32,604 nt of DNA from a virus: positions 1 through 32,604 of IMG/VR virus record IMGVR_UViG_3300036826_000353; one strand, 5' to 3'. Below are positions 1,392 through 13,130 of the stretch, in pieces (within the stretch, counting starts at the first letter, position 1; the number at the start of each line of letters is the position of its first letter). The notes below the pieces were generated by a model. The model searched no databases, had not been told where the DNA came from, and worked only from the letters and a program-made list of their open reading frames with translations. The translations under genes and the position numbers were made by a program.

Positions 1392-1832
1392 TTATTTCTT
1401 GACCTTCGCCAGGTTCTCGGCGGCCGCCTTTATCACCTCCTCACTCGCCCCGGCCTTGCGGAGGGCCAGGATGGCTGCGGCGGTCGGGTCTTGTTTGACC
1501 GACGCAGCGGAGACGATATCACGCAGGACGTCGATCTCCTTGAGGTAGTTGGGATCGACCTTGAGAGACGGGGCGGAGTTTGCTGCCGTCCTCAGGAGGG
1601 CCTGCGCCTTCACCGTGGCCCCATACATGGCCAAGATGATAACCTGCTCCTCGGTGCAGCGGCTAAAGTCGAAGATGGCGTCCTTAGTCTGTTCGGGGGC
1701 GTTCTGGTACGGGCGCCACTTGAAACGACGCCGCACTTTCTTCCCACCGAGATACTGGGTGTCACCAATCTCATTTGCTTCCTCGTTAGCCTGGGAAGCC
1801 TTCACCTCAGCCTGCTTGGCGATAGTAGCCAT
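1392..1832 (-). CDS. hypothetical phage protein, 146 aa
   Basis: This is an isolated minus-strand gene with a complete set of signals: a promoter with an operator-like palindrome at 1885-1913, the ribosome-binding leader ATAGGTGACAC before the ATG, and a strong terminator after the stop. The N-terminus is alanine- and glutamate-rich; residues 31-45 are basic and aromatic (GKKVRRRFKWRP); the rest is predicted helical with a lysine-rich end (AENLAKVKK). No transmembrane segment or known catalytic motif is seen and the family is not recognised. Basic and helical character would fit a nucleic-acid-binding or virion-associated protein, but that is inference. Its monocistronic, separately controlled arrangement suggests a product made at its own time or level. 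Confidence 0.8.
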   Translation of the reverse strand: MATIAKQAEVKASQANEEANEIGDTQYLGGKKVRRRFKWRPYQNAPEQTKDAIFDFSRCTEEQVIILAMYGATVKAQALLRTAANSAPSLKVDPNYLKEIDVLRDIVSAASVKQDPTAAAILALRKAGASEEVIKAAAENLAKVKK

Positions 1833-3672: not shown

Positions 3673-4310
3673 TTTGCCTTGTCAGCAACTATCACGTCAA
3701 GGGTGGGAAAGCGGCTGCGAGTTGCTTCGAGGAGGCGAGGGAGAGGGATGCCGAGCTTGTATGCGGCATCGCGAAGCTGGTCCTCGATCTGGCTATCTGA
3801 CATATTACGGATAGAGGCCTCCATAGATATGTCGATTTCCCGCTTCTCTGCAAAGCCTCCGAGGCGACCGAGGTCGAGGAGGGCTTTGGTCCACCTGTCT
3901 GGATACCTGTCTGCAAAGGCCATGATGGTCTGCGGAGTGGGAGCACACTCCATCCAGATGGCGAGGATGTCGAGGAAGGGGGTACGGTCATAGGATTGGA
4001 GCTTGAGACGGAGCTGTTCGGCGTCCCAAAGGGGCTTGAAGGATGGTCTATTTGCTGAATTGTTGGATGGGGCCCTCTTCTTCTCCTGTCCCTCACTGGC
4101 CTTGATCTTCCCCGCTCGGATCTCGTCCGCCCGCCGGCGCTTCCTCGCCCAGTGGTGCTCCTTTTGTCCAGTCGGGGCGAGGCCCAGGTCTGCCCTCGCT
4201 TGGTTCACCACGAAGCGAGCGAAGTCTGGATTCTCTGAGACGATCGTCAAGACGTCTTCTGGCGATATGGTATCTGGCAGTGTTTCCGCGGGAGTGGGGT
4301 CTGTTTTCAT
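3654..4310 (-). CDS. terminase-small-subunit-like or DNA-binding protein, 218 aa
   Basis: Start ATG at 4310 has AGGTGG four bases upstream, and the frame is closed by stops just before it. The N-terminal third (to about residue 50) is helical, then there is a very basic linker (ARKRRRADEIRAGKIKAS). The C-terminal half contains APTPQTIMAFADRYPDRW and DLGRLGGFAEKREI, a pattern I associate with phage terminase small subunits and related HTH phage proteins. The neighbouring large subunit expected for a terminase pair is not seen on this strand, which weakens the call. It follows an HTH-like gene whose frame overlaps it by 218 bp. Confidence 0.6.
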   Translation of the reverse strand: MKTDPTPAETLPDTISPEDVLTIVSENPDFARFVVNQARADLGLAPTGQKEHHWARKRRRADEIRAGKIKASEGQEKKRAPSNNSANRPSFKPLWDAEQLRLKLQSYDRTPFLDILAIWMECAPTPQTIMAFADRYPDRWTKALLDLGRLGGFAEKREIDISMEASIRNMSDSQIEDQLRDAAYKLGIPLPRLLEATRSRFPTLDVIVADKAKEKPPT

Positions 4311-4596
4311 TATCCACCTGACATGCGAGGAAGATCCACTGGTCTATCGAGGTCATAGTCGTCATCCAGTTGCCATCCGGCCTCTTGATCGCAGGGAAAC
4401 CGTATAGCTCTACCCACTGATATAACGTCACTGGTGAACGAATGCCAAGATAGTCCAAGATAGTCTTCAGGCCTGTCAACACGTTGTCTCGGGGATTTAC
4501 GTAGAGGAACGGCTCCTGGTCTGTGCCTGCCGCCCGACGGATGTTCACCCAGGCCTGGAGGCGAGACGAGCCGCTTCCCTGGTTTTGAGTAGTCAT
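4093..4596 (-). CDS. HTH (MerR/excisionase-like) DNA-binding protein
   Basis: Residues about 38-75 read as a winged-helix unit: TILDYLGIRSPVTLYQW, then GFPAIKRPDGNW, then SIDQWIF. This matches the layout of phage DNA-binding modules in which a helix-turn-helix is followed by a short hairpin and a capping helix. The open frame runs on for about 70 residues as Arg/Gly/Pro-rich sequence overlapping the next gene by 218 bp. That tail looks like a shadow frame, so either the overlap is real or the module is joined to the next frame by a frameshift or sequence error. It lies downstream of the GCGACA control region and may be regulated there. Confidence 0.55.
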   Translation of the reverse strand: MTTQNQGSGSSRLQAWVNIRRAAGTDQEPFLYVNPRDNVLTGLKTILDYLGIRSPVTLYQWVELYGFPAIKRPDGNWMTTMTSIDQWIFLACQVDNENRPHSRGNTARYHIARRRLDDRLRESRLRSLRGEPSEGRPGPRPDWTKGAPLGEEAPAGGRDPSGEDQGQ

Positions 4597-4966
4597 GTTC
4601 TGTTATAAGACCTTCGATATGGCGCCATCTGGCTGCGACGGCAGCCGAGAGAGACAGCCTGGTTCCTCGGAGGGTGGGAGGGTCTGAATGCATAGGGTGC
4701 ATTTTGGGGGTCTCAGGGAGGGGTTGGCAAGGGGGGATGACCAAATTTTGGGCATGGCAACTATACCCGTATGTGCAGTGATTCCTACTCGGCGACAAAC
4801 GACAAGACAGCGACATTAGCGACAATTGTCGCTCCGATCCCGAGCGACAGACAGCGACAAACCCCCAGTATGGGGTTGTCTTGTCGCGGTCGCTGTCGCG
4901 TCGCCATTGCCGGAGGCAGGGCTTTATGATAAATACAATGTCTCTCCCTGCCATTCGGAGTCACCT
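4597..4966. promoter_or_regulatory. divergent control region
   Basis: A 370-bp gap between the minus-strand HTH gene and the plus-strand RHH-like gene. On the minus side it holds the palindrome ATGGCGCCAT (4619-4628), the hairpin GGCTGC/GCAGCC (4631-4646) and AATGCA/TGCATT followed by Ts (4687-4705). In the middle is CCAAATTTTGG (4741-4751), then the GCGACA array (4792-4899). A weak plus promoter may be TTGCCG (4907-4912), 17 bp, TAAATA (4930-4935); TACAAT at 4934-4939 is an alternative -10. Confidence 0.55.
4792..4899. repeat. GCGACA iteron-like array; possible origin or operator
   Basis: GCGACA occurs at 4792, 4810, 4819, 4844 and 4854, and its complement TGTCGC at 4827, 4882 and 4894. Two copies form the perfect palindrome GCGACAATTGTCGC (4819-4832). 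A hairpin with CCCC/GGGG at its core (about 4857-4879) sits between the forward and inverted copies, making a large dyad. It lies just upstream of an RHH-like gene and a RepA-like helicase, which fits either a replication origin or an autoregulatory operator. Confidence 0.7.
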
Positions 4967-5232: not shown

Positions 5233-6240
5233 GTGACAATATCGAGGCTATCAGCTGTGCCTATAAACACTGAAGGTAACTTTCTCGTGGATGGTCTGAT
5301 ACCAGCAGCGGACCTTACCGTCCTATGGGGACCTCCAAAGTGCGGGAAGACGTTCTGGGCCATAGACCTGGCGATGCATGTCGCTTCTGGTCTAAGCTAT
5401 CGCGGGAGGAAGGTGAAGCAAGGCCCTGTTGTATACTGCTCCCTGGAGGGCAATCATGAGTTCGCTGCACGAGCACACGCAGCTGCTAATGTCCTATCCC
5501 TAAAGGATCCAGATTTCTTCTTATATCGCGATAGGCTGGTGTTTACCAAGCTATCTCAATCCCACGGTCTGACTGAGGAGATACGGAAGCTATCCATAAT
5601 CCCAGTATTGGTTGTGATAGATACCCTTAACAAGTCTCTGGATGGATCTGAGAACAGCGATGAGGACATGACGCACTACACACGGTGTGTCGAAGGTATC
5701 TTCCGAGAATTCGGATGCTCTGTGATGATCCTTCATCACTGCGGAAAGGCTGCAGATAAGCCAAGGGGACATACATCCCTCACAGGAACATGTGCTGCTC
5801 AGCTGAAGATGATGCGATCTGGGAAATCTACAAATCCTATGTTGGTGTCTACTATCATTGAGTTCATGAAAGACGGAGCTGAGGGTGCTGAGATGTTCAG
5901 CTGGATAAAGCAGACAACCGTAGGATATGCAGATGACGATACACCTATCCACACCTGCTACATCCAGGACGCCCCGCATCCGTCTGATGACGATGAGGTA
6001 ACATCTACATTTATGACCCCACAGACAAGGAAGGCTCGCTCTGTGCTGGAGAATCTGCTTGAACACAGCGTCGAAGATCGCGTTACCCTAACAGCATGGA
6101 AGACCGCATGCGAAGCTCATGGCATAAGCAGGACTAAGAACGGCTTTAAGAAGGCATGGGAAAGAGCCCTGGTTATGCTAAAAGAGAGTGGAGTGATACA
6201 CATAGAAGGCCAGTGGGTACGGCTTGGATCTGACAAGTAG
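5233..6240 (+). CDS. RepA-like replicative helicase (AAA_25/RecA-like ATPase)
   Basis: The 335-residue protein starts at GTG 5233; no in-frame Met occurs before residue 48, and GGGGGA lies upstream. Walker A is GPPKCGKT (33-40) and Walker B is PVLVVIDT (124-131). The motif ILHHCGK (166-172) followed by DKPRGHTSL is typical of RSF1010 RepA-like and phage AAA_25 ATPases, which form hexameric rings that unwind DNA with ATP. The C-terminal about 80 residues (KARSVLENLLEH to the end) look like a winged-helix tail, often used for DNA or partner binding. The gene follows the RHH-like gene and the iteron array, supporting a role in initiating phage DNA replication. No primase domain is present. Confidence 0.88.
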   Translation: MTISRLSAVPINTEGNFLVDGLIPAADLTVLWGPPKCGKTFWAIDLAMHVASGLSYRGRKVKQGPVVYCSLEGNHEFAARAHAAANVLSLKDPDFFLYRDRLVFTKLSQSHGLTEEIRKLSIIPVLVVIDTLNKSLDGSENSDEDMTHYTRCVEGIFREFGCSVMILHHCGKAADKPRGHTSLTGTCAAQLKMMRSGKSTNPMLVSTIIEFMKDGAEGAEMFSWIKQTTVGYADDDTPIHTCYIQDAPHPSDDDEVTSTFMTPQTRKARSVLENLLEHSVEDRVTLTAWKTACEAHGISRTKNGFKKAWERALVMLKESGVIHIEGQWVRLGSDK

Positions 6241-6256
6241 GATAGCAGATGTAAGA

Positions 6257-6265
6257 TGCCATAAT
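6257..6265 (+). promoter_or_regulatory. possible extended -10 promoter
   Basis: TGC followed by CATAAT, the same nine bases (TGCCATAAT) as in the strong promoter at 2127-2135. No -35 is seen at the right distance, so any activity would depend on the extended -10. Transcription would begin near 6272, just before the structured region. Confidence 0.35.
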
Positions 6266-6271
6266 TTGGCC

Positions 6272-6561
6272 ACATTCATGTGTCATATTGACACCCTGGC
6301 CCACTCGGGGGCCGCACTGGGCTGGGGGGGCCGAGCCTTTCCCCCTATGCCCGATAAAGCAATCCCGTCCATTTCAGGGGCGGGCTAGTATCGGAGTTGC
6401 TAGGCCCCCCAGCCCCCTGCTCCGATACGAGACGAGACCTGGAAACCCATAGTCGACTTGCACCAGGTCTCGTCCTTCCATCTTGGGGAGATGGACTATG
6501 CAGGGAACAATACAGGTCTGCAGTATAGCGAAGGGCTATGGCCTTAGGTCATGGCCCTTTT
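6272..6561 (+). ncRNA. candidate structured phage RNA or long 5' leader
   Basis: About 290 bases with no convincing ORF and strong complementarity. GGGCTGGGGGG (6319-6329) pairs with CCCCCCAGCCC (6405-6415). GTATCGGAG (6388-6396), located inside that loop, pairs with CTCCGATAC (6420-6428) outside it, an H-type pseudoknot arrangement. Inside the loop AGCAA/TTGCT encloses a CCCG..CGGG hairpin. GACGAGACCTGG (6431-6442) pairs perfectly with CCAGGTCTCGTC (6463-6474). It ends at a terminator-like hairpin (6532-6561). It could be a free small RNA or a regulatory leader of the gene at 6588. No known RNA family is recognised. Confidence 0.5.
6532..6561 (+). terminator. terminator-like hairpin ending the structured region
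   Basis: AGGGCTATG (6532-6540) pairs with CATGGCCCT (6550-6558; one G-T), with a nine-base loop, followed by TTTTC. It lies 26 bases before the ATG at 6588, so it could also act as an attenuator. Confidence 0.5.
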
Positions 6562-6587
6562 CTGCTGTGCAGACAGGAGTAGCGTGT

Positions 6588-6839
6588 ATGTCATGTCAGA
6601 CGGGGAAAGAACAGCAAGATGTAGTCAACCAAATAAGGGCTGTAGTTCAAGATGCCCTGGCAGAGCTAGGACCACTTCCCGTACGGGAAGTTTCATTGGC
6701 ACTTTCTATCCTAATGATCCACTCAATGCGGTCAGCTCATCCCGAGGCACAAGATAAGCAAATCTTACAAGCATTATTCAAGATGCTAAAATGGGTCTCA
6801 AGGAACGTGACGATAATCATGAGGACGGACATCAACTGA
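6588..6839 (+). CDS. hypothetical helical protein, 83 aa
   Basis: The start at ATG 6588 has AGGAG eight bases upstream; a longer frame from TTG 6483 would run through the terminator-like hairpin and is rejected. The product begins MSCQTGKEQQDVVNQIRAVV and is helical throughout, with a conserved-looking core (AELGPLPVREVSLALSILM). There is no membrane segment or catalytic motif. It is the first gene after the structured RNA region and may be controlled by it. Confidence 0.65.
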   Translation: MSCQTGKEQQDVVNQIRAVVQDALAELGPLPVREVSLALSILMIHSMRSAHPEAQDKQILQALFKMLKWVSRNVTIIMRTDIN

Positions 6840-10008: not shown

Positions 10009-10237
10009 GCCTGCCAGAGATGATGCCGTGGATGATATTAGGAAGACGGTATGCAACCTGGGTCTCAGCAATGCTGAGATATACCACAACACGTACCTCA
10101 GCCGCGGCACTATTCAGAAGCTACTCGAAGCCAGGGTAGGCAAGCCAAGGACCCGCTATCCATCTCATATGACCCTGAAAGGGGTAGCGGCTGCCGCCGG
10201 CTTCGAGTATCGTCTCGTCAGAAGGGATGAGGACTAA
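9983..10237 (+). CDS. HTH-like DNA-binding protein, 84 aa
   Basis: ATG at 9983 with AAGGGA upstream; an in-frame ATG at 9962 is less well supported. After a basic N-terminus, the segment SNAEIYHNTYLSRGTIQKLL has the helix-turn-helix form of Cro/CI-type regulators, in which the second helix contacts DNA. A basic arm follows (GKPRTRYPSHMTL) and then GVAAAAGFEYRLV. It is a likely transcriptional regulator; possible targets are the palindromic promoters at 2107 or 10615. That link is inference. Confidence 0.7.
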   Translation: MKTNRRHSKPARDDAVDDIRKTVCNLGLSNAEIYHNTYLSRGTIQKLLEARVGKPRTRYPSHMTLKGVAAAAGFEYRLVRRDED

Positions 10238-10560
10238 TGGCGGAGAAGGAGCCAAAGGACCTTATCCTCGCTAGACGAGGATATGAGGCGTTCTGGAATG
10301 AGCAGCCTCAGATATGGTTCGATCAACTATCTCATGACTATATCATGAGGTGGGTTCGAGTAGCCAGGGCGATTATGGAGGAGGTGTCCAGGAGCTCTGC
10401 AGATAAGATGAAGTCGCTTGAAGACGCTCATGCTGTCTTAGCTTCAGTCCCAAGGCGTAAGAACGGACGACTAAACATGACGGATCTGTCTGAGCAGGAG
10501 AAGAGAAAGGTCCAGTCAGCGAAACACTATATCAGCTATCATAAAAGGAGGCATGGATGA
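10237..10560 (+). CDS. hypothetical helical protein, 107 aa
   Basis: Begins in a TAATG overlap with the HTH gene. The product is helical and aromatic in its first half (GYEAFWNEQPQIWFDQL, DYIMRWVRVARAIMEEV) and very basic at the end (HYISYHKRRHG). No family is recognised. It is the last gene before the promoter at 10615. Confidence 0.65.
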   Translation: MAEKEPKDLILARRGYEAFWNEQPQIWFDQLSHDYIMRWVRVARAIMEEVSRSSADKMKSLEDAHAVLASVPRRKNGRLNMTDLSEQEKRKVQSAKHYISYHKRRHG

Positions 10561-10719: not shown

Positions 10720-11088
10720 ATGCAGCTTAATAAAGTAGTCGCAACCCGTGGCACTAATGAGCCGCCTGTAGAGGTCGAGATTGAACTGGCGGACAATCTG
10801 CAGGAGCTCATTGGACAGTTCGGTGATGAGGTTGTCTTCAGCCACGCTAAGCGCTCGGTTATCATCGCCCTTCAGGGCTACATGCGGTCCCTCATGGACC
10901 AAGGGAGGGAGAAGGGTCAGTCGGCGGCTGAGATTGCATCGAGTATCACAGAGGCTGTCAGGACCTGGAAGCCCAGTCAGAAGAAGGCTCCTCGGTCGGC
11001 TTCGGAGAAGGCCAGGGATCTGCTGTCCAGGCTATCTCCGGCGGAGCGGGCTGCGCTGTTCAAGGAGTATCGCAGCAAGGTAGCCTGA
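10720..11088 (+). CDS. conserved-type phage early protein, 122 aa, function unknown
   Basis: First gene of the replication transcription unit; AAGGAG lies 11 bases upstream of the ATG. The N-terminal part is beta-rich and acidic, the middle contains FGDEVVFSHAKRSVIIALQ, and after a basic linker (PSQKKAPRSASEKARD) comes the C-terminal helix SRLSPAERAALFKEY. I have an impression of similarly arranged unassigned phage proteins that end in a LSPEER-type helix, but cannot name a family. The position suggests replication or recombination support. Confidence 0.75.
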   Translation: MQLNKVVATRGTNEPPVEVEIELADNLQELIGQFGDEVVFSHAKRSVIIALQGYMRSLMDQGREKGQSAAEIASSITEAVRTWKPSQKKAPRSASEKARDLLSRLSPAERAALFKEYRSKVA

Positions 11089-11096
11089 TCTGGGAT

Positions 11097-11174
11097 CAGC
11101 CTAGCTCGTCGATCCCCGCCGGACGGTCAGCTAGGCTGTAGGTGGAGGGAGGTTGTCACCTATCCTCCCTCCAC
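11097..11174 (+). other. two perfect tandem hairpins
   Basis: CAGCCTAGCT (11097-11106) pairs with AGCTAGGCTG (11129-11138), and GTGGAGGGAGG (11142-11152) with CCTCCCTCCAC (11164-11174). Both stems are perfect, 10 and 11 bp. They fill the gap before the gene at 11202; there is no T-run. Confidence 0.6.
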
Positions 11175-11201
11175 TGCTATCTGTAGACAAAGGAGATACG
11201 T

Positions 11202-12831: not shown

Positions 12832-13130
12832 GGCTGGATCAGCGTGGAAACCCAGATGTATGCCGTACCGTCTATACACCAGTCGAGAAGGGACCGGCTG
12901 AAGTTGCCTTGGAGATTAAGCTCTGCACCAATAGCTTGATAAGTATATGCAGTATTCTATTACAGCAGAACCAGAGTCAGGAAGTCAGAAGGCTTTTTGC
13001 CTTAGCTGTCACTGACTTTGAGAAGGCATCGGACTGGGCAGTGAAGGCTCTGACCAGTGAAGGAGTATCATGTCCACTGGTTATCAAGGGAGTCGTAGAG
13101 AAGGTAAGGGAGTTTGAGAAACCTGAATAG
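12828..13130 (+). CDS. hypothetical helical protein, 100 aa
   Basis: ATG at 12828 overlaps the stop of the membrane peptide; the longer frame from 12792 would read through that peptide and is less likely. GGAGAG lies upstream. The protein is mainly helical (LEIKLCTNSLISICSILL, VRRLFALAVTDFEKAS) with several cysteines. No catalytic motif is recognised. Confidence 0.65.
   Translation: MRLDQRGNPDVCRTVYTPVEKGPAEVALEIKLCTNSLISICSILLQQNQSQEVRRLFALAVTDFEKASDWAVKALTSEGVSCPLVIKGVVEKVREFEKPE

Follow-up and report, generated by a model that had tools for sequence, protein, structure and literature searches.

What does the gene-free stretch between the helicase gene and the small gene at 6588 of this phage specify: an RNA with a promoter and an end of its own, and if so, one that acts on the operon behind it or elsewhere? 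The window analysed here is the whole virus record IMGVR_UViG_3300036826_000353 (32,604 bases); features of the stretch lie on the plus strand unless marked (-). An earlier note had read positions 6257-6561 as a candidate RNA, either discrete or a regulated leader of gene 6588, a reading that is plausible from the sequence. Upstream lies an AAA_25 (RepA-like) helicase gene (5233..6240; Pfam PF13481, E 2.4e-33), and downstream an 83-aa gene (6588..6839) without PHROG, Pfam or phage match, which heads the downstream operon. The stretch is indeed gene-free, with no open reading frame of at least 60 aa wholly inside; the two frames that enter it continue into gene 6588 (6483-6839, its upstream extension, and 6551-6757). 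Besides the helicase, the record encodes family A polymerase parts, one protein with matches to ParB-like as well as DNA methyltransferase families, and a Sak4-like protein, and its structural genes run leftward.

The 2.1-kb stretch around the element had no DNA match among 50,697 phage records. Relatives were gathered by protein, giving 8 polymerase loci (54-60% identity), 21 structural-protein loci and 49 exonuclease loci, with some contigs in more than one list. The region from the helicase to 9962 is variable among these relatives. Within the group, the AAA_25 helicase is kept by three relatives (G004, G016 and G024), and two (G003 and G008) have another protein at its position, which we take to be a D5-type primase. 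Gene 6588 has no relative in phages, nor in 8 related records. In search of a host, bacterial genome contigs were scanned with two protein queries, and neither gave a relative.

The promoter had been placed by the earlier note at an extended -10, TGCCATAAT at 6257, identical to that of the 2107 promoter, with a transcript starting near 6272. Exact copies of TGCCATAAT occur in the record at 2127 and 6257, and no -35 hexamer with at least 4/6 matches lies 16-18 bases before 6257, so that by itself this nonamer is weak. Instead, TGCCATAAT forms the upstream half of a 37-bp motif at 6254-6290 that is conserved in related phages, so the idea of a promoter of its own holds with a different -10. The motif consists of GCCATAAT and GCCACATT repeats spaced 11 bases apart and followed by an aligned -10; its block reads GCCATAAT-N3-GCCACA(A/T)T, then CATATT in this phage and TATAAT or TATATT elsewhere, although the same CATATT is found in L033. 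The -10 is probably this CATATT (6284-6289), and transcription would start near 6296; a start near 6272 is probably wrong. The spacing of 11 bases would fit a regulator bound on one face of the DNA. The 2127 copy of TGCCATAAT matches the first repeat only and sits in a plain TTGACA-N17-CATAAT promoter. The identity with the 2107 promoter thus looks coincidental, since a profile of the motif scores 2126-2143 at only E 2.1.

This profile, built from 8 relative sites with the studied record left out, matched 6255-6290 at E 7.5e-7, with that E of 2.1 as its next-best match in the record, which places the block among the promoter/operator sites of the group. A simple weight matrix likewise gave the block 39.1 against 15.2 for the runner-up. 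In direct DNA comparison, 6248-6295 matched DNA in front of a left-arm gene in L086 and L089/L071, and more weakly in L087 and L085/L045. The iterated profile over 95 loci gave 17 matches at E <= 0.02, which after merging of overlapping loci are the studied phage and 11 sites in 10 other contigs. The first relative sites came from similarity to the studied phage and the rest from a profile containing it, so even the profile without the studied record is not wholly independent, as its sites were found using that phage. The stronger support for the motif is its steady position before homologous genes and its position in G004, directly behind the same helicase gene as here. An open reading frame follows the motif in 10/10 relative sites shown, with its start codon 35-92 nt behind it (the GTG/TTG codons listed first in L033 and L045 being set aside); the 11th site, in L081, is near-identical to that of L033 and stands outside those 10. 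An upstream inverted repeat, GATCAC-N6-GTGATC in exact or near form, accompanies 8 of the 10 relative sites printed and is absent from the studied phage, G004 and G016.

Behind the promoter, the three stems proposed earlier were all found as perfect Watson-Crick helices: helix A (11 bp, 6319-6329 with 6405-6415), helix B (9 bp, 6388-6396 with 6420-6428) and hairpin C (6431..6474), whose 12 bp (6431-6442 with 6463-6474), at pair probabilities of 0.98-1.0, enclose a 20-nt loop. The C-rich 3' arm of helix A lies inside the loop of hairpin B (6388..6428), and the two are therefore interleaved. Dinucleotide shuffling of 6241-6587 (1000 replicates) gave one sequence with an interleaved pair that scored 20 bp or more, four with a perfect helix of 12 bp or longer and three in which at least three helices reached 9 bp. 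The interleaved 11+9 bp pair is the highest-scoring of the record, yet it is not of another order, as scores of 18-19 also occur around 4800-4897, 6431-6500, 10099-10287 and 11037-11138. The fold of 6270-6580 reached -146.9 kcal/mol (z -4.83), and none of 100 shuffles was as good. Among 542 sliding segments of 120 nt, two from the stretch ranked 4th and 8th; the first rank went to 4801-4920, in an iteron region.

The interleaving of helices A and B is confirmed, and the pseudoknot that it had suggested is compatible with the sequence, but the connector between them (6416-6419) is only 4 nt, short for crossing a helix of 11-13 bp, which speaks against both forming at full length. The best fold from 6296 contains a hairpin at the putative 5' end (6297..6314, from the minimum free energy fold), most of helix A, hairpin C, a small hairpin of 8 pairs with a 3-nt loop (6477..6495) and a last hairpin (6516-6574). 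Relative to this optimum of -139.5 kcal/mol, helix A can be imposed on the fold for 0.6 kcal/mol and helix B for 2.3 kcal/mol (-137.2); with helix B formed, the G-run of the helix A 5' arm pairs locally within 6318-6353. As the folded prefix is lengthened, its best fold changes back and forth between helices A and B towards the 3' end. The supposed pseudoknot may accordingly be, as predicted by the folding model, two near-equal alternative folds. Allowing G-quadruplexes left the best fold unchanged, and this structure was set aside. From the alternative folds one could imagine a bistable phage RNA of a new class, so far from one phage, which, made from the phage-regulated promoter, would either set the timing of accessory-gene expression or target host transcripts as a self-masked RNA resembling the 6C family discussed below: the G-run paired far away (helix A) would hide the C-rich loop, and paired locally (helix B) would expose it. 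We consider this rather unlikely.

At the 3' end, the last hairpin (6516..6574) has, by eye, a terminator-like inner part (6531-6565) with a 13-bp stem followed by the T-rich sequence TTTTCTGC. It ends directly before AGGAG (6575..6579), a Shine-Dalgarno-like sequence of gene 6588. The terminator-like end described earlier is therefore recognizable by eye, but a scan for intrinsic terminators did not list the 6516-6574 hairpin, and the claim stands in weak form.

The same motif precedes structured leaders in other phages. In six relatives (G006, G003, G008, L079, L080 and L086) the interval from the motif to the start codon holds two hairpins, in the order of a sequence-conserved first hairpin, the linker ACAAGGG and a sequence-variable second hairpin. 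Of the 11 pairs of the first hairpin, 4 differ on both sides among the six sequences, and 90.9% of cells pair as against 23-47% when slid. The paired percentage was reached by 9/500 shuffles, the count of doubly changed pairs by 14/500 and the count of further pair types by 157/500, so that covariation gives modest support to this hairpin in six sequences. A leader model (R1) searched in 60 sources found at E <0.1 only seven gene-linked copies, and it did not match the studied phage's RNA; its best match in the record is a weak one at 13050-13113 (12 bits, E 0.042 unfiltered). Two-hairpin leader sites lie at L042 15964-15897 (-), L033 14354-14417, L045 15281-15344, L079 655-592 (-), L080 546-485 (-) and L086 1335-1274 (-), and the gene behind them is homologous to 1392-1832 (-) of the studied phage. 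This element is possibly a regulatory leader of its own. It resembles the studied RNA in having the same promoter motif directly upstream and a hairpin at the putative 5' end, and differs from it in being about 60 nt long, built of simple hairpins and placed before a conserved gene. The leader behind the motif in G004 is short only. The promoter is thus common to the group, whereas the RNA behind it is particular to the studied phage. Another gene-free leader, about 93% conserved, was seen at L033 11120-10960 (-), L044 1-160 and L045 11838-11680 (-); it contains interleaved complementary pairs (GACTAGG/CCTAGTC and TGCGGTAGA/TCTACCGCA), possibly a pseudoknot, and precedes a small gene with a C-x-H...CRxC pattern. 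It has no Rfam match; Rfam at gathering thresholds gave none in four relative loci.

The RNA body (6296-6566) itself has no homolog in the collections searched. No RNA like it lies behind the helicase in G004, G016 or G024. Blastn of 6226-6600 against related loci gave nothing below E 0.4, the promoter block provided the only matches under 0.01 in the 49 exonuclease loci, and in 22 records there were two with a match at E <=1 (18 bases in G018, E 0.0038; 24 bases in G016, E 0.0045). Phages and plasmids gave no match at E 1, and Rfam at gathering thresholds none in the studied record. A pattern scan with the hairpin C stems returned 3 loci, about the chance number by our own estimate; two look coding, and the third (L075 11928-11975) is a hairpin of greater length within a different GC-rich region.

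The stretch might have no specific RNA function, being a set of intergenic inverted repeats with a transcript end that became G/C-rich by drift or insertion within a variable region. The variability of the helicase-to-9962 region among relatives fits such an origin, as do strong hairpins in other gaps, for example 11089-11201, where two long hairpins (CAGCCTAGCT.../GTGGAGGGAGG...) are neighbours. On the other hand, the helix statistics of 1-4/1000 shuffles and the conserved promoter directly upstream speak against this. There is also no sign of a decayed gene, since the best match of 12 six-frame peptides against 125 loci (E 0.22) is the promoter block itself, and a pseudogene was rejected on this ground. 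We regard the absence of function as unlikely.

A second explanation treats the stretch as DNA, namely as the phage replication origin, read by the C-terminal domain of the helicase. Its position directly downstream of an AAA_25 helicase gene invites this, because 14 of 15 more distant AAA_25 loci have, judged by eye, an iteron array behind the helicase (the exception is L008). In those loci (L001-L005, L009, L011, L013, L015 and L018-L022) the iterons lie just behind the AAA_25 gene, with a word that varies by phage, and in most of them surround a hairpin with a CTTAG/CTAAG/CTAG-like centre. With these origins, 6257-6561 shares the position and strong inverted repeats but not the iterons, of which there are none at 6180-6660. 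The array of the studied phage (GCGACA/TGTCGC with the central hairpin CCCCCAGTATGGGG) is found instead at 4785..4905, upstream of the helicase as in G016 and G024; the record has 23 GCGACA/TGTCGC words, 8 of which fall in 4780-4915. It overlaps the 5' part of the minus-strand open reading frame 4310-4954. In a gene-poor stretch of G016, L071 7945-8080 holds 3.9 copies of diverged tandem repeats of about 36 bases. Judged by its sequence, 4785-4905 is likely the replication origin, and since the array is upstream of the helicase in all three phages, 6257-6561 is freed from that role. An origin at 6241-6587 was rejected, and we hold this reading of the stretch to be highly improbable.

In the reading that we prefer, at a probability of roughly 45%, the operon beginning at 6588 has a long structured leader (attenuator), or an attenuated small RNA, encoded in the stretch. 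The stretch combines a conserved promoter motif, a stronger-than-chance fold and freedom from genes. The phage-regulated promoter at 6254-6290 would start an RNA near 6296, consisting of the 5' hairpin, a G/C-rich region forming helix A and/or B, hairpin C and the terminator-like hairpin at 6516-6574. It would most likely act in cis, on the accessory-gene operon from 6588: some transcripts would stop near 6566, giving a stable RNA of about 270 nt, and the rest would read through by partial termination, possibly under an A/B switch or a ligand that sets it. This leader reading is supported by the motif, recovered by a profile without the studied phage and present at 11 sites in 10 contigs, by the reading frame behind it in every relative site shown, by its place behind the same helicase in G004 and by the two-hairpin leaders behind it in six relatives. 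It gains further from the fold and helix statistics and from the last hairpin abutting the AGGAG of 6588. It is weakened because the RNA body lacks a homolog in the collections searched and hence covariation, because G004 has a short leader only, because the terminator scan does not list the last hairpin and because gene 6588 lacks conservation as well.

What began as a guess from a single nonamer has become a control element common to a little-described phage group, in which one promoter motif precedes structured leaders that differ from phage to phage. Should the RNA body prove functional, it would be a phage regulatory RNA that belongs to no known family; the conserved promoter supplies a definite start site to test.

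Two known systems bear on how such an RNA could act. The put RNAs of phage HK022 are about 70-nt two-hairpin elements near early promoters (PMC9378689). By analogy, hairpins B and C, which are adjacent, 2 bases apart and begin about 90 nt after the putative start, could engage RNA polymerase and carry it past the downstream hairpins of the long operon, and the relatives' two-hairpin leaders behind the motif would agree with antitermination in cis. What the two share is a pair of neighbouring stem-loops behind a phage promoter. The studied stems are of other size and sequence and are perfect, unlike put, for which bulges and a triplex are described (PMC9378689), and B competes with helix A and is the minority fold. 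Such an action is improbable, and put serves as a functional analogy only.

The nearest Rfam model is 6C (RF01066), whose hit at 6385-6478 scores 32.2 bits (E 0.015, 421 bases searched). 6C RNAs, known from Actinomycetales, have a pair of stem-loops whose loops typically carry about six cytosines each (PMC4046766), and in B11 the C-rich loop acts on guanine tracks near ribosome sites (PMC12395582). The studied RNA shares with 6C/B11 two adjacent 12-pair hairpins and a first loop, that of hairpin B, with six cytosines (CCCCCC; this loop holds CCCCCCAGCCCCC). It could be a small RNA acting in trans in the manner of 6C/B11: its C-rich loop, or else the G-run upstream of it, would bind G- or C-tracts beside the ribosome sites of host or phage mRNAs; exposing the loop by forcing helix B costs only the 2.3 kcal/mol given above, while helix A would hide it and make the RNA self-inhibited. 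Against this, 32.2 bits is far below the gathering score of 47 and probably owed largely to the two adjacent 12-pair stems, and the second loop, AAACCCATAGTCGACTTGCA, holds only three cytosines (CCC), so that membership in 6C was rejected. The upstream G-run, moreover, can mask the first loop, and the two protein scans of bacterial contigs gave no relative by which the phage could be tied to a host group such as the Actinomycetales of 6C (PMC4046766). Action in trans appears doubtful, though it deserves a place beside the leader reading, and for how this RNA might act, 6C remains by analogy a lead.
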